Positions 3,612 to 12,333 of a stretch of DNA of 64,000 bases are shown here, in pieces. Origin of the DNA: Hyunsoonleella pacifica. Its GTDB lineage: Bacteria; Bacteroidota; Bacteroidia; Flavobacteriales; Flavobacteriaceae. The stretch covers positions 98,297 to 162,296 of the forward strand of contig NZ_SIRS01000006.1 of NCBI RefSeq assembly GCF_004310335.1, in the 5' to 3' direction. The stretch's first letter is position 1, and each line of letters opens with the position of its first letter. The notes beneath the pieces are model-generated. The model was not told the DNA's origin, did no database searches, and saw only the letters and a list, made by a program, of their open reading frames with translations. The position numbers were made by a program, and so were the translations under genes.

Positions 3612-4727
3612 ATGAAAGTATGCTACATATTATTAGTATTTGTATTGCTGAGTTGCAATACCAGAAAAAAGGAAGACAGTCCGATAGAAATACCTAGTAT
3701 TAATTCTGAAATAAGTACAAAAACACCAAAGCTAGATTTGGAACAAGCCAAAAAACTAGCAGAATTACCTTTACATTGTATCAATATAGAATATCCCAAT
3801 AAACTTTCGCAAACTTTGGGTAGTGACGAAGATTTAAAGTCTCCAATAATTTTACATCCAGCATTTTATGGTTGTTTTGATTGGCATTCAGCGGTACATG
3901 GGCACTGGAGTTTGGTAAGTTTGTTAAAATCTTTTCCTGATATTGAGCATGCAGAAGAGATAAAGAAACGATTACTTCATAATATTTCAAAAGAAAATAT
4001 AGAAGCTGAAGTATCCTATTTTAAAGGGAAACACAATACATCTTATGAGCGTACTTATGGTTGGGCGTGGTTGCTAAAACTAGCCGAAGAATTACATACT
4101 TGGGATGATAAAACTGCAAAACAGTTAGAAGCAAATTTACAGCCACTTACAAATTTGATCGTGGAAAAATATATAGACTATTTACCTAAGTTGAATTACT
4201 CATTACGAGTGGGCACACATACTAATACAGCTTTTGGGTTATCCTTTGCCTATGATTATGCCCAAACTGTTGGACATGATGGTTTAAAAAAAGCAATAAA
4301 AGATAGAGCATTATTTTTCTTTAAGAATGATAAAAATTGTCCTATATCATGGGAACCTAGTGGGAGTGATTTTTTATCACCTTGTTTAGAAGAAGCAGCA
4401 TTAATGAAGCGTTTGCTGCCCCTTGAAGATTATAAAGTTTGGTTAGATAATTTTTTACCACAATTGAAAAATAAAAATTTTAATATTGAAGTTGGATTAG
4501 TTTCTGATAGAACAGATGGGCATTTGGTGCATTTAGATGGTGTTAACTTTTCTAGAGCTTGGAATTTGTATAAAATAGCAGAAGATATACCTGAATATAG
4601 TCATTTAAAACATGTTGCAAACCAGCACATCAATTATTCGCTTCCAAGTATTTTTGGTGATGATTATATGGGCGGACATTGGTTAGGTAGTTTTGCTATT
4701 TACGCATTGAATGCTTCCAATTTGTAA
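3612..4727 (+). CDS. DUF2891 family lipoprotein
   Basis: The protein (371 residues) begins with a short hydrophobic stretch ending LLSC, a lipobox, so it is probably lipidated at Cys15 and held in the envelope. The DUF2891 signature HPAFYGCFDWHSAVHGHW lies at about residues 80-97, and further His/Trp/Asp-rich blocks follow, suggesting an all-helical, (alpha/alpha)6-like hydrolase fold. Family function is unknown. It is divergent from the DUF2911 gene and 88 bases upstream of the tricorn-like protease gene in the same direction, so it might share envelope peptide or glycan turnover, but that is inference from position only. Confidence 0.88.
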   Translation: MKVCYILLVFVLLSCNTRKKEDSPIEIPSINSEISTKTPKLDLEQAKKLAELPLHCINIEYPNKLSQTLGSDEDLKSPIILHPAFYGCFDWHSAVHGHWSLVSLLKSFPDIEHAEEIKKRLLHNISKENIEAEVSYFKGKHNTSYERTYGWAWLLKLAEELHTWDDKTAKQLEANLQPLTNLIVEKYIDYLPKLNYSLRVGTHTNTAFGLSFAYDYAQTVGHDGLKKAIKDRALFFFKNDKNCPISWEPSGSDFLSPCLEEAALMKRLLPLEDYKVWLDNFLPQLKNKNFNIEVGLVSDRTDGHLVHLDGVNFSRAWNLYKIAEDIPEYSHLKHVANQHINYSLPSIFGDDYMGGHWLGSFAIYALNASNL

Positions 4728-4815: not shown

Positions 4816-7800
4816 ATGAAATGTACTTCAAGGCTGTTTACACTAGTTGCTCTAGTGTTTGTAAGCTTCGGGATGGCTCAAAACCCTTTAATTAATTTCC
4901 CAGCAATAAGCCCTGATGGGCAAACGATTGCATTTAACTATCAAGGTGATATTTGGACAGCAACTGTTAATGGTCAAAATCCAAAAAGATTAACAGTACA
5001 CGAAGCTTACGATACAAAACCTGTTTGGAGTGCAGATGGTAAGTCTATAGCTTTTATTAGTGAGCGATTTGGTAATAATGATGTTTATGTGATGCCAACC
5101 AATGGTGGGACTCCAAAACGAATAACATATCATTCTGCTAGAGATATTATTACCGATTACACACCTAATGGCGATATACTATTTTCTACAAGGAGAAATT
5201 TTGTGCAAGTAGAGCGTGAATATGAAACCCATATTGTAAGTGCTAGTGGAGGAACGCCAAAACGCTATCTAGATGCTACTGGTTTTGATGCAACACTCTC
5301 ACCAAATGGTAAATTCGTGGTTTTTGTAAAAGGAAGTTGTAGATTAGAAAGAGAAGCGTATAGAGGGCCTGCAAATAGAGATGTGTGGTTATATAATATT
5401 AAAAATGATAGCTATTCAAAACTTACCGATTATGATGGAAACGATTTTTATCCGCAGTGGGGAGACAACAACACAATTTATTTCCAATCCTCTAGAAGTG
5501 GTAAGTACAACATTTATAAGTTAACTATAAGTGATTCAGGTGTAAAGCAGGGAGACGTATATCAAATTACAAACTTCTCAGATATGGGGATTTTTTCATT
5601 TCAAATTAGTAGAAATGGAACTGATTTAGTAACTAATAAAGGAAACAGCGTTTATGTTATTAATGCAAATACCAAATCCCAAACAGAGGTTAAAATAAAT
5701 ATTGCTTCAGATTATAGATTCGACCCCGTTGTACATAAGACATACAGCAGTAATATTGATGATATTGCTGTTTCTCCAAATGGAAAACATGCAGCAATTA
5801 CTATACGAGGAGAGATTTTTATTAGGGAAACTTCAAAAGATAAAAAACGTACAGTAAATATAACAAAATCGTCTTTTAGGGATGGTAATGCAACATGGCT
5901 AAACGATAGTACAGTACTGTTTATTTCTGATAGAGATGGACAGAAAGATATGTATTTGGTAAAATCTGATAATGAAAACGAATCCGATTTGTTTAAAACC
6001 TTAAAACATAAGATAGAAAGATTAACTAAAACAAAAGATGATAAAAACAACTTAGTATTATCTCCAGATGGTAAATCTATTGCTTATACAGTAGGTAGAG
6101 GGCAATTGGTTGTTGCAAATATTGATAATAAGGGGAAAATGTCAAACACAAAAACGTTGCTAGATGGTTGGGCAACTGCGCGAGGTGTATCATGGTCTCC
6201 AGATTCTAAATGGTTAGCATATAGTTTAAGCGATTTAGATTTTAATTCTGAAATCTATATTCATCAAGCAGATAATAGCACTAAACCAGTAAATATTTCA
6301 ATGCATCCAAAACAGGATAGAGTGCCTGTGTGGAGTCAGGATGGAAAAAAATTAATGTTTTCTTCAAACAGAAATAATAGCGATTATGATGTGTGGTTTA
6401 CATGGTTAACCAAAGCAGATTGGGAAAAAACTAAAGAAGATTGGGAAGAAGATATTGATGATTCTAAAGAAAAAAATACGAAAGAAGATAAAAAAGCAGA
6501 CAAGGATAAAAAAGATAAAACTCCAAAAGTAAAACCTGTTGCTATAGATTTTGATGATATTCACGAACGTCAAGTCCAAGTCACGTCTTATGTTGGAGGT
6601 GAGTTCGGACAATTATTTTCTAAAGATTCAAAAACTATATATTATACAACAGGTAATGGTAGTAGAGGTAATGCAAATACAGATTCTGATTTGTTTAAAA
6701 TAAAATGGAACGGAGAAGATAGAAAAGCATTAACATCGAATAGTACACGACCATCAAATATTTCTATTAATAAAAAGCAATCAATGCTTTACTTCACTAA
6801 AAGAGGAGGAAGCCTTTCTAGTATTAATCTATCAAATGATAAAAGTGAATCATTATCATTTTCTGCAAAGATGGATATTGATTACAACAAGGAATCACAA
6901 CAAATATTTAATGAAGCTTGGAAGGCAATAAACGATGGGTTTTACGACCCTAATTTTCATGGGCAAGACTGGGAGAGTTTAAGAAAAAAATACGAGCCTT
7001 TAGCGTTAAACGCATCAACAAGGGATGATTTTCAAACTGTTTTTAATTGGATGTTAGGTCAAATAAATGCAAGCCACATGGGATTGTATCGTGTAGAAAC
7101 AAGAGAGGACCTTCAAAGTGAAAGAACAGGTTTGCTAGGAATAGAGTTTGAGCCAACTTCCAATGGGCATTTAAAAGTAGTATCGGTGGTATCTACAATG
7201 CCTGCAGATAGAAACGCGAGTCAAATAAATATTGGAGATATTATAACTTCGGTAAATGGAAACGATTTAGATAAATCCTCTAACGTTTACGAATTCTTGG
7301 AAGGTACAGCGAATGAAAAAATATACTTAGAAGTAGATAGAAAGGGAAATTCAAAAGAAATTATCATCAGGCCAAAGAGCAGTAATCGTGCAGAAAATTA
7401 CAATGCTTGGGTTAAAGCGCGAAAGCATTTAACTGATAAATATTCAAACGGACGTTTAGGTTACATTCACATCCAAGGTATGAACTGGACAAGTTTTGAG
7501 CGTTTTGAACGTGAATTAACAGCTGCGGGATTAGGTAAAGAAGGTGTTGTAATAGATGTAAGGTTTAATGGAGGTGGTTGGACTACCGATTATTTAATGG
7601 CCGTTTTGAATGTAAAACAGCATGCATATACTGTACCAAGGGGGGCAGCTAAAAATTTAGAAACAGAACATACTAAATTTATAAAAAATTACCCCTACAG
7701 TGAACGTTTGCCTCTAGCCTCATGGACAAAGCCATCTATTGCGCTTTGTAATCAAAATAGTTATTCTAATGCTGAAATCTTTTCACATGCTTATAAAAAT

Positions 7801-8052
7801 CTAGGAATTGGAACATTGGTAGGAATACCAACATTTGGAGCAGTAATTTCAACTGGAGGCACAGGTTTAATTGATGGATCCTATGTTAGAATGCCTTTTA
7901 GAGGTTGGTACGTAAAGGCAACTCAATCTAATATGGAGTTAGGTCCAGCAGTACCAGACATCATAGTACATAATAATCCTGATGATAAAGCTAAAAATAA
8001 AGATACGCAGCTTAAAAAGGCAGTAGATGAACTGCTAAGTCAATTAAAATAG
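4816..8052 (+). CDS. Secreted tricorn-like protease: beta-propeller, PDZ, S41 core
   Basis: This 1078-residue protein has a Sec signal peptide ending near FGMAQ (residue 22). Residues about 25-690 hold repeated D-G-K-x-[IL]-[AV]-[FY] blades typical of TolB/tricorn propellers. A PDZ-type segment follows at about 770-850 and a C-terminal S41 serine-protease core from about 870; NSYSNAEIF places the probable nucleophile at Ser984. A low-complexity linker of Lys, Asp and Glu at about 540-575 interrupts the propellers. Tricorn-type proteases degrade oligopeptides into short pieces; the signal peptide implies action in the periplasm. The domain order matches full-length family members. Confidence 0.93.
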   Translation: MKCTSRLFTLVALVFVSFGMAQNPLINFPAISPDGQTIAFNYQGDIWTATVNGQNPKRLTVHEAYDTKPVWSADGKSIAFISERFGNNDVYVMPTNGGTPKRITYHSARDIITDYTPNGDILFSTRRNFVQVEREYETHIVSASGGTPKRYLDATGFDATLSPNGKFVVFVKGSCRLEREAYRGPANRDVWLYNIKNDSYSKLTDYDGNDFYPQWGDNNTIYFQSSRSGKYNIYKLTISDSGVKQGDVYQITNFSDMGIFSFQISRNGTDLVTNKGNSVYVINANTKSQTEVKINIASDYRFDPVVHKTYSSNIDDIAVSPNGKHAAITIRGEIFIRETSKDKKRTVNITKSSFRDGNATWLNDSTVLFISDRDGQKDMYLVKSDNENESDLFKTLKHKIERLTKTKDDKNNLVLSPDGKSIAYTVGRGQLVVANIDNKGKMSNTKTLLDGWATARGVSWSPDSKWLAYSLSDLDFNSEIYIHQADNSTKPVNISMHPKQDRVPVWSQDGKKLMFSSNRNNSDYDVWFTWLTKADWEKTKEDWEEDIDDSKEKNTKEDKKADKDKKDKTPKVKPVAIDFDDIHERQVQVTSYVGGEFGQLFSKDSKTIYYTTGNGSRGNANTDSDLFKIKWNGEDRKALTSNSTRPSNISINKKQSMLYFTKRGGSLSSINLSNDKSESLSFSAKMDIDYNKESQQIFNEAWKAINDGFYDPNFHGQDWESLRKKYEPLALNASTRDDFQTVFNWMLGQINASHMGLYRVETREDLQSERTGLLGIEFEPTSNGHLKVVSVVSTMPADRNASQINIGDIITSVNGNDLDKSSNVYEFLEGTANEKIYLEVDRKGNSKEIIIRPKSSNRAENYNAWVKARKHLTDKYSNGRLGYIHIQGMNWTSFERFERELTAAGLGKEGVVIDVRFNGGGWTTDYLMAVLNVKQHAYTVPRGAAKNLETEHTKFIKNYPYSERLPLASWTKPSIALCNQNSYSNAEIFSHAYKNLGIGTLVGIPTFGAVISTGGTGLIDGSYVRMPFRGWYVKATQSNMELGPAVPDIIVHNNPDDKAKNKDTQLKKAVDELLSQLK

Positions 8053-8079
8053 TATCTTTAGTTTAAGAACTAACTTAAT

Positions 8080-9285
8080 TTGAATAAGCTTTTTAAATAT
8101 ATTGGTCCAGGACCTTTAATTGCAGCTGCTTTTATAGGTCCTGGTACAGTTACAGTATGTACACTTGCCGGGGTGCAATTTGGTTTTAATCTGCTTTGGG
8201 CTATGGTATTGTCAGTTGGTGCCACAATTATTCTTCAAGAAATGACAGCTCGTTTAGGGTTAGTATCACAACAAGGATTAGCTGAAGTCTTAACATCCGA
8301 GATAAAAGATTCCTTTTTTAAGTATATAGTTGTTTTTTTAGTGCTTTCAGCTATTGTAGTTGGTAATGCTGCTTATGAAGGCGGTAATATAAGCGGAGGT
8401 GTGCTTGGTTTAGAAACTCTTTTAGGAGGTAATAAAATTATTTTCAGTTTGTTAATTGGAGTAATTGCATTTGTTTTACTCTTTTTAGGTAACTATAAAG
8501 TTCTAGAGCGTGTATTAGTAATTCTTGTAATTCTTATGAGTTTGGCATTTTTAATCACAGCTATACTCACTAAGCCTGATGTTTCTGAAATATTCAAAGG
8601 TGCTTTTTTACCAAATTTTCCAGAAGATAGCACACTTCTTGTATTGGGATTAATAGGAACTACGGTTGTGCCTTACAACTTATTTTTACATGCTTCATTA
8701 GTTAAAGAAAAGTGGCATACTATTGATGATTTAAAATATGCAAGAAAAGATACATTTATAGCCATTACTTTAGGTGGAGTAGTTTCCATGAGCATCATTA
8801 TTTGTGGTGCTGCTATTCATAATTTAGAAGTGAAAAATGCGACTGATTTAGCGCTTGGGTTAGAACCTTTATTTGGGAGTTTTTCAAAGTATTTTTTAGC
8901 TATTGGATTATTTTCTGCAGGAATAACAAGTGCCATTACAGCACCACTAGCTGCTGCCTATGTAGCTTCAGGGTGTTTTGGGTGGGATACAAATCTAAAG
9001 TCCTTTAAGTTTAGAAGTATTTGGATGCTAATTTTAGTATTAGGTGTGGTTATAGCATCATCAGGATTTAAGCCCATACAAGTTATTAAATTTGCGCAAG
9101 TAGCCAATGGTTTGTTGCTTCCTATTATAGCTGTACTTTTATTATGGATAATGAATAGAAAGAAATTACTTGGAGTTCACAAGAATTCTGTTATGAATAA
9201 TATTTTGGGTGGATGTATTGTTTTGATTAGTTTGCTTTTAGCTGTAGCTGGTTTAAGTAAAGTATTTAATTTAAATGTGTTTTAG
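8080..9285 (+). CDS. Nramp-fold transporter lacking the metal-site residues, first gene of the pxp operon
   Basis: Eleven hydrophobic segments and the opening GPGPLIAAAF match the Nramp (SLC11) family, and TM6 keeps the P-x-N-L-x-L-H signature. The ligands that bind divalent metal in canonical Nramp are changed: DPGN of TM1 is G-P-G-T (residues 20-23) and MPH of TM6 is V-P-Y (197-199). The stop codon overlaps the GTG start of pxpA by one base. Bacillus subtilis keeps a related gene (ycsG) beside its ycsF-kipI-kipA cluster. I infer an inner-membrane carrier that may import 5-oxoproline or a related compound rather than metal. Translation starts at a TTG; a promoter-like TATCTTTA lies at 8053-8060. 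Confidence 0.85.
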   Translation: MNKLFKYIGPGPLIAAAFIGPGTVTVCTLAGVQFGFNLLWAMVLSVGATIILQEMTARLGLVSQQGLAEVLTSEIKDSFFKYIVVFLVLSAIVVGNAAYEGGNISGGVLGLETLLGGNKIIFSLLIGVIAFVLLFLGNYKVLERVLVILVILMSLAFLITAILTKPDVSEIFKGAFLPNFPEDSTLLVLGLIGTTVVPYNLFLHASLVKEKWHTIDDLKYARKDTFIAITLGGVVSMSIIICGAAIHNLEVKNATDLALGLEPLFGSFSKYFLAIGLFSAGITSAITAPLAAAYVASGCFGWDTNLKSFKFRSIWMLILVLGVVIASSGFKPIQVIKFAQVANGLLLPIIAVLLLWIMNRKKLLGVHKNSVMNNILGGCIVLISLLLAVAGLSKVFNLNVF

Positions 9286-10025
9286 TGAGAGAGTTTTCTA
9301 TTGATATAAACGCAGATTTAGGAGAAGGTATTGGTAATGAAGAACAGTTAATGCCTTTAATATCTTCTTGTAACATTGCTTGTGGAGGGCATGCGGGAGA
9401 TAAAAATACCATTAGAGAAGTTGTAAAGCTTGCTAAGGCATATAAGGTAAAAATTGGTGCTCACCCTTCATTTCCTGACCCAGAAAATTTTGGACGACTT
9501 CCAATGGAAATGCCTTACGCAGCATTATTTAAATCAATAAAAGATCAAATAAATACTTTAGTTGATATAGTAGATGAAGAAAATACAGTTTTACACCATG
9601 TTAAACCTCATGGAGCTTTATATAATAAAGCGGTAAAGGATGCAAAAATTGCAAATGTAATTATTGAGGTAATGAAGAGTATGCATTTACCTGTGTATTT
9701 ATATGTCCCCTACAAGTCAGTAATCGCAAGGTTAGCAATAGAGTATAAGATTCCTATAATTTATGAAGCCTTTGCAGACAGAAGGTATAATGATGATTTA
9801 ACCTTAGTTTCAAGATCAAAAAAAAATGCAGTACTTCATGATGAAGATGAGGTGTTTCAACATGTGTACACAATGATTTCTCAAAAAAAGGTAAAGTCTA
9901 TTTCGGGTAAAGAATTAGAAATAAAAGCCCATACATTTTGTATTCACGGTGATAATCCAAAAGCTATTGGATTGGTAAATAGATTAAAATACAGTTTGGA
10001 ATCTAAAGGTGTTAGTGTTCTTTAG
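9285..10025 (+). CDS. pxpA: 5-oxoprolinase subunit A (LamB/YcsF family)
   Basis: The 246-residue product starts with the family signature D-I-N-A-D-L-G-E-G followed by CNIACGGHAGD, and later has H-H-V-K-P-H-G-A-L-Y, all typical of LamB/YcsF proteins. PxpA works with PxpB and PxpC in the cytosol in ATP-dependent opening of 5-oxo-L-proline (pyroglutamate) to L-glutamate. Length equals the usual 240-255. The GTG start overlaps the stop codon of the transporter by one base, and pxpB begins two bases after the pxpA stop, so translational coupling of the operon is likely. Confidence 0.95.
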   Translation: MREFSIDINADLGEGIGNEEQLMPLISSCNIACGGHAGDKNTIREVVKLAKAYKVKIGAHPSFPDPENFGRLPMEMPYAALFKSIKDQINTLVDIVDEENTVLHHVKPHGALYNKAVKDAKIANVIIEVMKSMHLPVYLYVPYKSVIARLAIEYKIPIIYEAFADRRYNDDLTLVSRSKKNAVLHDEDEVFQHVYTMISQKKVKSISGKELEIKAHTFCIHGDNPKAIGLVNRLKYSLESKGVSVL

Positions 10026-10027
10026 TT

Positions 10028-10759
10028 ATGAAATACAAATTGAAATACAAACGATTTAGTGAAACTTCAATTCTCATAGAATGGCCACAAAAGATTGAAA
10101 AATCTATTTTAGATGATATTCTAGTGTTTAAAGAAAAAATAGAACAATCGGACTTATTTTCAAATGGATTTATAAATCATGCGTATGCTTCATTGCTTTT
10201 GAATTTTAATGATGCCGTTTTCGATTTTGCTTTAAAAATTGAAGAACTTAATGGGTTATACAAGCAGCCAAACATAAAGAATAATCTAAATAGCAGATTA
10301 TGGAGAATACCTGTGTGCTACGATAAGCGTTTTGGAATTGATTTGGATGACATATCGAAAGGAAAAAATATTGAAATAGAAGAGTTGGTTAAACGTCATA
10401 CCACACCAGTTTACACTATATTTTTTATAGGCTTTCTTCCTGGTTTCCTGTATTTAGGAGGTTTAGATACATCTCTTTTTGTACCTAGGAGAGCTGTGCC
10501 TAGATTAAAAATACCAAGTGGTTCTGTTGCCATTGGAGGGCAACAAACAGGAATTTATCCATCTGAAAGCCCTGGAGGATGGCATATTATTGGTAATTCT
10601 CCAATTAATTTTTTTGATGTTTCAAAAGAAGAACCTTGCTTTTCTAGATCAGGAGATCGTCTTCAATTTTATGCCATTTCACTAAAAGAGTATAATGATA
10701 TAAAAACTTTAGTTGCAGCTGGAGTATACCAATTAAAAAGCGAGATAATAAATGATTAA
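10028..10759 (+). CDS. pxpB: 5-oxoprolinase subunit B (KipI family)
   Basis: This 243-residue carboxyltransferase-type subunit shows the diagnostic central block FIGFLPGFLYLGGLD, then PRRAVPRLKIPSGSVAIGG and GGWHIIGNSP. In Bacillus the homologue KipI also binds and inhibits the sporulation kinase KinA, but the conserved role is as a 5-oxoprolinase subunit with PxpA and PxpC. It sits two bases after pxpA and its end overlaps the start of pxpC by eight bases, so the three subunits are made from one message. Nothing is missing compared with the family length. Confidence 0.95.
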   Translation: MKYKLKYKRFSETSILIEWPQKIEKSILDDILVFKEKIEQSDLFSNGFINHAYASLLLNFNDAVFDFALKIEELNGLYKQPNIKNNLNSRLWRIPVCYDKRFGIDLDDISKGKNIEIEELVKRHTTPVYTIFFIGFLPGFLYLGGLDTSLFVPRRAVPRLKIPSGSVAIGGQQTGIYPSESPGGWHIIGNSPINFFDVSKEEPCFSRSGDRLQFYAISLKEYNDIKTLVAAGVYQLKSEIIND

Positions 10760-11600
10760 GGTGTTACATCCAGGGTTTTACACCACAATACAAGATTTAG
10801 GAAGGACAAACTACCAACATTTTGGGGTGCCAAAATCTGGAGTTATGGACCAAAGGGCTGCAAAAATAGCTAATGCACTTGTAGGGAATAATGAAAATGA
10901 AGCTGTTTTAGAAATTACAATGAGTGGGCCAAAGCTAGAGTTTCAAACAGAGGCTATAATAGCTATTACGGGCGCTAATTTAAATCCAAAATTGAATAGT
11001 AAGGAAATTTTAAATAATCGTTTATTAAAAGTAAGTGAGAGCGATATTTTAAGTTTTGGGAATTTGGTTTCAGGATTTCGTTGTTATTTAGCTGTTTCAG
11101 GAGGTTTGCAAACCCGAATTGTTTTAGGAAGCAAAAGTATGTATAGCGGTATAACTCAATATGATATTATTAAAAAAAATGATTTTTTTAGTACTGTTAA
11201 AAGTGATATTTCAAATGAAAAACAGTTTTCGGGATTAAAGGTTAATGATTCGTATTTAAAATCCTCAACACTAGAAGTTTTAAAAGGGTTGGAATTTGAT
11301 AGTTTAACTACTATTCAAAAAGAAAAATTATTATCAAAAACATTTAAAGTATCAAAAGATAACAACAGAATGGCATATCAACTTGAAGAACATATTGAGA
11401 ATAATCTAAAACCAATAATTACGTCTCCAGTTATACCAGGCACTGTGCAATTAACCCCTTCGGGAAAAATAATTATTCTAATGCGAGATTGCCAAACTAC
11501 GGGAGGTTATCCAAGAATATTGCAACTAACAACATCTGCAATCAATGTATTAGCTCAAAAATTTACTGGAAACACTATTAGTTTTAAGCTTAAAGATTAA
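10752..11600 (+). CDS. pxpC: 5-oxoprolinase subunit C (KipA family)
   Basis: The N-terminus KVLHPGFYTTIQDLGR and the following HFGVPKSGVMD are the classic start of KipA/biotin-dependent-carboxyltransferase-type proteins; AITGANL and a C-terminal GGYPRILQL block complete the family pattern. At 282 residues it is near the shorter end for the subunit but has both family ends. It is the last gene of the transporter-pxpA-pxpB-pxpC operon and completes the enzyme that recycles 5-oxoproline to glutamate. Its last four codons overlap the convergent deoC gene by 11 bases. Confidence 0.94.
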   Translation: MIKVLHPGFYTTIQDLGRTNYQHFGVPKSGVMDQRAAKIANALVGNNENEAVLEITMSGPKLEFQTEAIIAITGANLNPKLNSKEILNNRLLKVSESDILSFGNLVSGFRCYLAVSGGLQTRIVLGSKSMYSGITQYDIIKKNDFFSTVKSDISNEKQFSGLKVNDSYLKSSTLEVLKGLEFDSLTTIQKEKLLSKTFKVSKDNNRMAYQLEEHIENNLKPIITSPVIPGTVQLTPSGKIIILMRDCQTTGGYPRILQLTTSAINVLAQKFTGNTISFKLKD

Positions 11601-12333
11601 CCCTTATATCTTTTAGTACATCTAGAGAAACTTCACTTTTTTGGGAAGTTTCCATGTAGCGTCTATATATTTTAGAATTTCTTTTTTGTAGTGTGTCTTT
11701 TTCTGGTTTTAAAACGGTTGATGTACCAATTCTATCTGCACCAGATTCTAGATATTTTACGGCTGTTTCAAAATCAGTAACACCGCCTGAAGCTTTTATT
11801 TTTGCACTGTCTTTTACAGTTTTTTTCATGATTTTAACTGCTGTAAATGTCGCCCCACCAGAAGCAAATCCAGTAGACGTTTTTACAAAATCAGCATTAG
11901 CATCAACTGCAATTTCACATGCTTTAACAATTTCATTCTTATTAAGCTCAGAAATTTCAATGATTACTTTTAATGTAGTATCCCCTACAGCACGTTTAAC
12001 ATCAGAAATATCCCTTAAAACAGAAACGTAATTTCTACTTTTTAAGTAGCCTAGATTTATTACCATATCTATTTCATCAGCTCCATCTTCAATAGCATTT
12101 TGTGCTTCAGAAATTTTACTTTGTGTGGACATTGCCCCTAACGGAAAACCAACTACAGTACATATTTTTACATCAGTATTCATAAGAAGTTCTTTTGCTA
12201 GTTTAACGTAAGAACCATTTACACATACTGAAAAATATTGATTAGCTTTTGCTATTTTGCATATATTGATGATGTCTCTTTCTGTAGCCGTTGGCTTTAA
12301 AAACGTATAGTCTATGTAGTTAGATAAATTCAT
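11590..12333 (-). CDS. deoC: Deoxyribose-phosphate aldolase
   Basis: A class I TIM-barrel aldolase of 247 residues that cleaves 2-deoxy-D-ribose 5-phosphate to acetaldehyde and glyceraldehyde 3-phosphate in deoxynucleoside catabolism. The Schiff-base lysine is Lys151 in VKTSTGF, the second active-site lysine is Lys180 in IKASGGV, and the acidic residue in DEIDMVIN is also present. The opening block, usually IDHTLLKP, reads IDYTFLKP here. No other deo gene is adjacent; it is transcribed toward pxpC and overlaps it, so the neighbourhood gives no functional link. Confidence 0.95.
   Translation of the reverse strand: MNLSNYIDYTFLKPTATERDIINICKIAKANQYFSVCVNGSYVKLAKELLMNTDVKICTVVGFPLGAMSTQSKISEAQNAIEDGADEIDMVINLGYLKSRNYVSVLRDISDVKRAVGDTTLKVIIEISELNKNEIVKACEIAVDANADFVKTSTGFASGGATFTAVKIMKKTVKDSAKIKASGGVTDFETAVKYLESGADRIGTSTVLKPEKDTLQKRNSKIYRRYMETSQKSEVSLDVLKDIRVNL

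Follow-up and report, generated by a model that had tools for sequence, protein, structure and literature searches.

The Hyunsoonleella pacifica contig NZ_SIRS01000006.1 carries, within the 64,000-nucleotide stretch from position 98,297 to position 162,296 of its forward strand (hereafter the window), a gene for an Nramp-fold carrier that runs directly into pxpABC, the genes for the three subunits of 5-oxoprolinase. Comparative sequence analysis suggests that this carrier is probably an importer of 5-oxoproline and that the locus is probably a 5-oxoproline utilization operon. The carrier belongs to a clade, here called class A, that accompanies two unrelated 5-oxoprolinase-type enzymes in two domains of life, which supports an organic substrate. 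The switching of class A between two enzymes with one likely substrate supplies evidence that is not tied to a single operon, and this change of partner appears to be the strongest new evidence for an organic substrate. It bears on a conflict in print, in which the cargo of Nramp homologues from 5-oxoprolinase operons is given as Mn2+ (YcsG, MumT) or as 5-oxoproline (PxpT).

The carrier, the motifs of its transmembrane helices (TM) and the pxp genes occupy the following positions of the window.

8080..9285, + strand: Nramp-fold carrier, class A, 401 residues, TTG start (PF01566, 312 bits against a gathering score of 29.8)
8137..8148, + strand: TM1 motif GPGT, canonically DPGN (helix break of the structural model at residues 19–20)
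8377..8388, + strand: TM3 motif E100-x-x-N103, canonically D-x-x-E (alignment of class A with canonical Nramps)
8656..8676, + strand: TM6 motif GTTVVPY, canonically GATVMPH (helix break of the model at residue 197)
9285..10025, + strand: PxpA, LamB/YcsF family, 5-oxoprolinase subunit (PF03746, 285 bits; NCBIfam NF003814, 261.8 against a cut-off of 226)
10028..10759, + strand: PxpB, 5-oxoprolinase subunit (PF02682, 210 bits; TIGR00370, 155.1 against a cut-off of 145.6)
10752..11600, + strand: PxpC, 5-oxoprolinase subunit (PF02626, 238 bits; NCBIfam PxpC models below cut-off)

Between the upstream in-frame stop at 8071 and the TTG at 8080 there is no further ATG, GTG or TTG candidate in this frame. 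The carrier stop codon TAG (9283–9285) and the GTG of pxpA share one base (9285, a junction of −1), a gap of 2 bases separates the end of pxpA from the start of pxpB, and pxpB and pxpC overlap by 8 bases. These coordinates agree with the junctions given in the first-pass annotation of the window; its description of the carrier as ‘fused' into the operon has to be abandoned, since the genes overlap only and the carrier and PxpA are separate proteins. Its reading of the motifs is accurate: TM1 of the carrier is AAFIGPGT and TM6 is GTTVVPYNLFLH (from 8656), which hold the reported GPGT and VPY. All three Pxp subunits are adjacent in the window and confirmed by Pfam; two NCBIfam models for PxpA subfamilies and the one for PxpB are above their cut-offs, and those for PxpC are not.

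The 237 distinct Nramp-family sequences that we collected were sorted into 173 of class A, 32 canonical, 6 NRMT-like (for the NRMT magnesium transporters), 6 of the MumT type and 20 others, and a sequence was scored as enzyme-linked when the enzyme gene lay within 1.5 kb on the same strand. Pxp genes were found near 125 of the distinct class-A sequences and Hyu genes near a further 21; HyuA and HyuB belong to the hydantoinase/oxoprolinase family, which is unrelated to PxpABC. The sample of linked Nramps is biased to class A because many loci were found with class-A queries; within it, the 151 enzyme-linked distinct sequences are all of class A (146) or the MumT type (5), and none of the 32 canonical, 6 NRMT-like or 20 other sequences is linked, a check that is free of circularity from the motifs.

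The haloarchaea provide the second domain of life. Searched against plasmid records, the window protein matched haloarchaeal proteins at 43–50% identity, and HyuA lies directly beside the carrier in 22 of the 23 records with such a match (coordinates read by eye; several records are near-identical strains). HyuA and HyuB, as annotated, directly follow class A at its 3′ side in six of the eight haloarchaeal loci examined; L143, truncated by the end of its record, has HyuA after the carrier, and L141 is without Hyu genes. In bacteria, a single HyuA–HyuB reading frame adjoins class A in five loci of a second phylum (L228–L232, about 1,200–1,290 residues) and occurs in two of Bacteroidota (L257 and L266, 1,277–1,279 residues, with one gene between in L266), separate HyuA and HyuB genes lie beside class A in L261, L267 and L268, and profile matches support both Hyu halves in L228, L230, L231, L257 and L266. 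Second-phylum class-A genes occur with Pxp genes as well (L233–L236 and L240). Mapped on the tree described below, the partner has changed at least three times, or six times when partners encoded away from the carrier are included (38 rows). In the open-licence PMC literature we found no paper that joins Nramp with hydantoinase or deals with the class-A pairing.

The association also holds at the level of whole genomes. We scored one draw of 247 genomes of the phylum Bacteroidota for class A, PxpA and Hydantoinase_B (HyuB), excluding one PxpA match below its cut-off. Sixty-four genomes matched the class-A profile; ten of these were set aside (five canonical, four NRMT-like and one other), and the remaining 54 were all checked by sequence, the reading frame in L277 being without TM1. 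Every one of the 54 contains PxpA (39) or HyuB (15), against 32 of the 193 genomes without class A (Fisher P=3e-32). Since these genomes are related, the count by family, in which the association holds in 11 of 11 families, carries more weight than the P value. In the window's own family the enzyme is present in 10/10 genomes with class A and 2/17 without it. Linkage is not obligatory: of 53 class-A rows scored for it, 15 have no enzyme gene within 1.5 kb, although one is present in the genome. Two draws from the second phylum, of 200 and 147 genomes, gave 14 class-A genomes once G060, the genome of L127, was left out as probable contamination; all 14 hold the enzyme, linked in 10 and elsewhere in 4. 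The two unrelated partners in two domains, together with the 54 of 54 Bacteroidota genomes, speak for the earlier proposal that the substrate is organic and most simply 5-oxoproline. A separate feature of the Bacteroidota draw is that no genome combines PxpA (51 genomes) with HyuB (35 genomes), as if the two were mutually exclusive; both are present in G076 of the second phylum.

A survey of relatives of the window carrier found the arrangement of the window conserved. It used the best 80 of at least 586 confirmed relatives, which were found with an alignment as the query; the window protein alone gave no match against genome contigs. The 80 named loci carry mostly flavobacterial names, with L064, L090 and L118 assigned only to Bacteroidetes/Bacteroidia and L130 to Algicola sp. 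L127 is filed under Alcanivoracaceae, yet its gene groups with those of Flavobacteriaceae, and the assignment is probably contamination. In 76 of the 80, pxpA lies directly 3′ of the carrier, at a junction of −5 to +5 bases in 52 of the 76; these linked loci comprise 72 with the full pxp set, 2 from Kordia and 2 cut by a contig end. In the Kordia loci (L116:6255–7706 and L117:6234–7685) PxpA and PxpB share one reading frame of 483 residues, with both Pfam domains confirmed in L116. Four loci are unlinked (L077, L106, L118 and L119), and the genome of L118 has pxpABC elsewhere. A set of 60 related genomes contained 23 class-A genes, 21 of them adjoining pxpA, and the two unlinked genomes, G004 and G029, likewise have pxpABC elsewhere. 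Three relatives of the same genus (G003, G006 and G011, with loci L043, L044 and L045) have kept pxpABC with no class-A carrier, and in G003 a DUF2891 gene adjoins pxpA; either another importer is present in these strains or the enzyme is used for internal repair.

The metal-binding residues of canonical Nramps are replaced throughout class A. We take M230, A227, D131 and Q378 to be the DraNramp numbers of four of the sites considered here. D56, N59, H232 and position 134 follow the DraNramp numbering given in PMC12873925. All 32 distinct canonical sequences have the Asp, Asn, Met and His of the site. In class A the TM1 Asp position is G in 169 of the 169 distinct sequences with TM1 in view and the Asn position is Thr (168) or Ser (1), and in TM6 all 173 have V at the Met, Y at the His and Thr at the Ala position. 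Because these motifs were themselves among the criteria for assigning sequences to class A (219 rows, and another 7 whose TM1 was GPGS or missing), their universality within it is partly circular. Other positions differ too: TM3 position 100 is E (163) or Q (10) in class A and D in 32/32 canonical sequences, position 103 is N in 35/35 class-A and E in 16/16 canonical representatives, and TM10 position 343 is Asn in 35/35 class-A representatives and Leu in canonical Nramps. Gln340 of TM10 is kept in 173/173 class-A sequences. The possibility that the D, N and M residues were shifted but conserved was looked for in the alignment and not seen. The first-pass annotation had asked whether the losses of DPGN and MPH are universal in the clade and absent outside it. 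In the sampled class A they are universal, but they also occur elsewhere: Gly occupies the Asp position, and Met is missing from the Met column, in all 6 MumT-type and all 20 other Nramps, although ‘no Met' is doubtful for L041 and L042 of the latter, which have an MP pair two places before that column.

Despite these replacements the window protein retains the Nramp fold. Its profile alignment spans positions 5–400 of 407 on the solved structure 7qia, and it does not pass the curated NCBIfam model for MntH (168.6 bits against a cut-off of 430). An AlphaFold model of the carrier, built from 48 aligned sequences, has a mean predicted local distance difference test score of 85.5 and a predicted template modelling score of 0.86, and its helices break at residues 19–20 and 197, the sites of the TM1 and TM6 motifs, as expected of an Nramp fold. 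Class A thus resembles canonical Nramp/MntH proteins in fold, in near full-length alignment to solved Nramps and in the TM10 Gln, and differs from them in lacking the D/N/M/H site, in TM3 E-x-x-N for D-x-x-E and in its place outside the canonical clade. The best class-A profile match among solved structures is 7qia, which we take to be EleNRMT, and the Thr at the TM6 Ala position is another likeness to the NRMTs. These transporters differ from class A in forming a separate clade and in holding the TM1 Asp (6/6), where class A has G; the NRMT motif is described as DxxG-TxxA/T, with that Asp retained (PMC8806188).

We were interested in whether the metal site had been lost in class A or was never present. 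A maximum-likelihood tree of 71 representatives, without an outgroup, recovered class A as one clade (support 100/99), as well as the canonical (100/100), MumT-type (100/100) and NRMT-like (100/98) groups. Class A ranges over Bacteroidota, Pseudomonadota and haloarchaea, the name Pseudomonadota for the second bacterial phylum resting on the filing of L127 alone. A constraint that placed class A among the canonical sequences, keeping L276 outside as the earliest split of the canonical rows, was rejected (log-likelihood 114 worse; approximately unbiased (AU) test, P=1e-8). Class A and the canonical group as one clade was not rejected (AU P=0.413), nor was class A with the MumT lineage (AU P=0.356); the two are thus neither established nor refuted as sisters, and the tree gives no evidence for two separate origins of pxp linkage. 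Given that nesting is rejected and that DPGN and MPH are also missing in Nramp groups unlinked to oxoprolinase-type enzymes, the first-pass description of a metal site ‘erased', or exchanged for an organic substrate, is unsupported. Most simply, the site would be an acquisition of the canonical line and not a loss in class A, with gain and loss not separable by this tree alone because it has no outgroup. A broader scenario, which we put forward tentatively and think more doubtful than not, is that 5-oxoproline transport is an ancient trait of Nramp-type carriers: a pyroglutamate carrier would be the ancestor of both class A and the YcsG/PxpT/MumT lineage, the canonical metal site would have come later, the Mn reports for YcsG and MumT would be indirect, and class A would be 5-oxoproline carriers of two domains whose enzyme changed several times. 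If 5-oxoproline is the substrate, many ‘divalent metal transporter' annotations are misnamed and the step from an amino-acid-like to a metal substrate in the LeuT fold becomes testable.

The YcsG/PxpT/MumT lineage shares with the window protein the Nramp fold, a Gly for the TM1 Asp, the lack of the TM6 Met and a pxp operon. It differs in its motifs (GPGF(L/I)TQT-like and GGTVGGY-like, against GPGT and GTTVVPY), in forming its own clade and in several operons with a D-glutamate cyclase-family gene and a biotin carboxylase. MumT-type proteins are 23.5–26.7% identical to the window protein by BLAST (four members) and 18–22% over the full alignment. We found members in Acinetobacter, Klebsiella, Proteus, Levilactobacillus, Deinococcus and Ilyobacter (the last not pxp-linked), and in Bacillus badius by motif and gene order; their operons carry pxpA, and several also a ‘putative hydro-lyase' and biotin carboxylase. 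The hydro-lyase of L183 (2354–3142) matches the Pfam D-glutamate cyclase family PF07286, and similar genes occur in L175 and L186; such a cyclase would yield 5-oxo-D-proline, which would suit a link to 5-oxoproline in operons that have been described as Mn and urea systems.

The order in B. badius is pxpA-NRAMP-hydro-lyase, and that in B. subtilis is presumably ycsF-ycsG-ycsI. PxpT is 50% identical to YcsG (PMC13274462). From this shared order and this identity, YcsG and PxpT most likely belong with the MumT lineage and not with the window protein. As judged by motif and gene order in B. badius, the related Bacillus gene invoked by the first-pass annotation belongs to this other lineage, whose identity to the window protein is about 27%. 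In Corynebacterium glutamicum the Nramp homologue PxpT was reported in 2026 to be required for growth on 5-oxoproline by in-frame deletion and complementation, in an account that describes PxpABC as a 5-oxoprolinase, cites earlier evidence implicating B. subtilis ycsG in 5-oxoproline use and leaves metal transport open (PMC13274462). A 5-oxoproline link for an Nramp homologue of another lineage was thus already in print, and the proposal of the first-pass annotation is, in general terms, not new. A survey of the superfamily assigns MntG to the group ‘G-motif 3' and calls all Nramp-related groups but the NRMT-like and MntG ones entirely uncharacterized (PMC12873925). Class A is an apparently unstudied clade, distinct from the YcsG/MumT lineage that probably includes PxpT, and it shows which proteins to assay; new in this analysis are the clade itself, its two-domain range, the change of enzyme partner and the link to DUF2891.

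We propose that a secondary importer of the LeuT/Nramp fold would bring 5-oxoproline (pyroglutamate) into the cell, where PxpABC would open it with ATP to glutamate and so supply carbon and nitrogen. Amino-acid carriers of the same superfamily bind the carboxylate at the unwound turn of TM1. Judging by the aligned sequences and by where the helices break, the substrate carboxylate might be held by backbone amides and Thr23 of the unwound GPGT turn, with Thr194 and Tyr199 of TM6, Asn103, Gln340 and Asn343 perhaps facing the lactam ring; these residue roles are the least certain part of the proposal.

Several observations weigh against a 5-oxoproline importer. Seven of 30 related genomes with pxpA are without class A, so the pxp enzyme does not require this carrier, and for 27 of the 173 distinct sequences of class A no gene of either enzyme lies within 1.5 kb. 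The HyuA and HyuB partners fall below every NCBIfam cut-off, with only caprolactamase and acetophenone carboxylase models matched, and ‘5-oxoprolinase' is for that reason unproven for them; the best match of a Hyu partner to a solved structure is 7hk5, named N-methylhydantoinase (454 bits), followed by 6yra, named 5-oxoprolinase (200 bits). One class-A subgroup (L256, L258 and L263) stands beside 2-oxoacid oxidoreductase-like genes instead. No canonical DPGN Nramp above the family cut-off was found in the window genome, so metal import by a paralogue cannot be claimed, and no transport data for class A were found in the open-licence PMC literature. Two published reports on the other pxp-linked lineage, to which YcsG probably belongs, point to metal: overexpression of YcsG raises cell Mn in B. 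subtilis, in a report that doubts the earlier ycsG result on 5-oxoproline for possible polar effects (PMC10448178), and in Acinetobacter baumannii a mumT deletion, which was also complemented, has reduced cell Mn by inductively coupled plasma mass spectrometry and grows poorly on urea (PMC5050338).

These reports of Mn import by YcsG/MntG and MumT from pxp-type operons raise the possibility that the window carrier is an importer of a divalent metal, Mn2+ or another, with an unusual site and co-regulated with metal-needing enzymes. We consider this unlikely. The lack of a canonical Nramp in the window genome would suit it, as would the NRMTs, which carry divalent metal despite altered sites (PMC8806188) and one of which, 7qia, heads the structural matches of class A. 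However, the NRMTs keep the TM1 Asp that class A lacks, class-A sequences, wherever these positions are in view, have G at the Asp, T or S at the Asn, V at the Met and Y at the His position, none of the 32 canonical Nramps stands beside these enzymes, and the Mn reports concern the other lineage, whose C. glutamicum homologue is needed for growth on 5-oxoproline.

An equally improbable reading is that the substrate is organic but different, either another cyclic amide (hydantoin-like, or 5-oxo-D-proline) or a small carboxylate. The Hyu superfamily includes hydantoinases and caprolactamases, four of the eight haloarchaeal loci examined contain a gene resembling Asp/Glu/hydantoin racemases (one of them checked by profile), and the side branch of class A beside 2-oxoacid:ferredoxin oxidoreductase-like genes points the same way. 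Against this, the commonest partner, in 125 of the 146 linked distinct class-A sequences, is PxpABC, the described 5-oxoprolinase (PMC13274462), and in a Haloarcula locus the second gene upstream belongs to the glutamate dehydrogenase family, which fits glutamate as the product. That the operon serves detoxification, with the carrier as an exporter of 5-oxoproline or of its product or as a non-transporting sensor, is very hard to credit: 5-oxoprolinase does reconvert internally formed 5-oxoproline (PMC13274462) and the direction of transport is not readable from sequence, but PxpT is required for growth on external 5-oxoproline, which needs import (PMC13274462), and DUF2891 also occurs in a locus that is required for 5-oxoproline use.

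That DUF2891 gene is a recurrent neighbour of the 5-oxoproline importer proposed here. Two further genes of the window precede the carrier.

3612..4727, + strand: DUF2891 protein, 371 residues, probable member of the carrier locus (PF11199, 452 bits)
4816..8052, + strand: S41 peptidase of the tricorn type, lying between the DUF2891 gene and the carrier gene (the same order in L051, L058 and L063)

Among the 76 named loci with upstream sequence, DUF2891 lies upstream on the same strand in 51 (adjacent in 44, further off in 7) and is missing from 25. In Campylobacter jejuni, cj0552-4 encodes DUF969, DUF979 and DUF2891; the first two had earlier been proposed as a 5-oxoproline transporter, and a cj0552-4 mutant lost 5-oxoproline use in what the source calls a preliminary experiment (PMC12795558). 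HyuB, DUF969, DUF979 and DUF2891 are listed with close cluster numbers in PMC10040529. DUF2891 therefore goes with two unrelated carriers proposed for the same substrate: DUF969/DUF979 resembles class A in apparent role, beside DUF2891 and oxoprolinase-type genes, and differs in belonging to another Pfam family. DUF979 was absent from the 60 relatives and the 247 Bacteroidota genomes searched. DUF2891, for which a solved structure exists (8ieu), is likely a helper in 5-oxoproline use and a candidate new component of it. DUF2891 was also noted upstream of class A in the window and in L013, L067, L077, L085, L116, L118, L240, L278, L279, L281–L283 and L285; it lies upstream of the carrier also in L013, L118 and L278, whose pxpABC genes stand at another place in the genome, and in L257 it stands ahead of the fused Hyu gene.

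Whether the S41 peptidase is part of the carrier/pxp system is uncertain. On the opposite strand, a gene for a DeoC-family aldolase (11590–12333) overlaps the end of pxpC by 11 bases, and a DeoC-like gene, judged by the start of its sequence only, is found beside pxpC in the relatives L043, L044 and L045 as well. The subgroup of L256, L258 and L263 (GTSSLVVAAFVGPGTVLTC-like) lies directly 3′ of genes for 2-oxoacid:ferredoxin oxidoreductase-like subunits, which in L256 match PF01855/PF01558 and PF02775; a similar gene is located further upstream in L259, and the genomes of the three loci carry HyuB elsewhere. In genome G022, L039 (4911–7484) contains a tandem pair of different Nramp-related genes, one of the GPGS type and one of the GTGS type.

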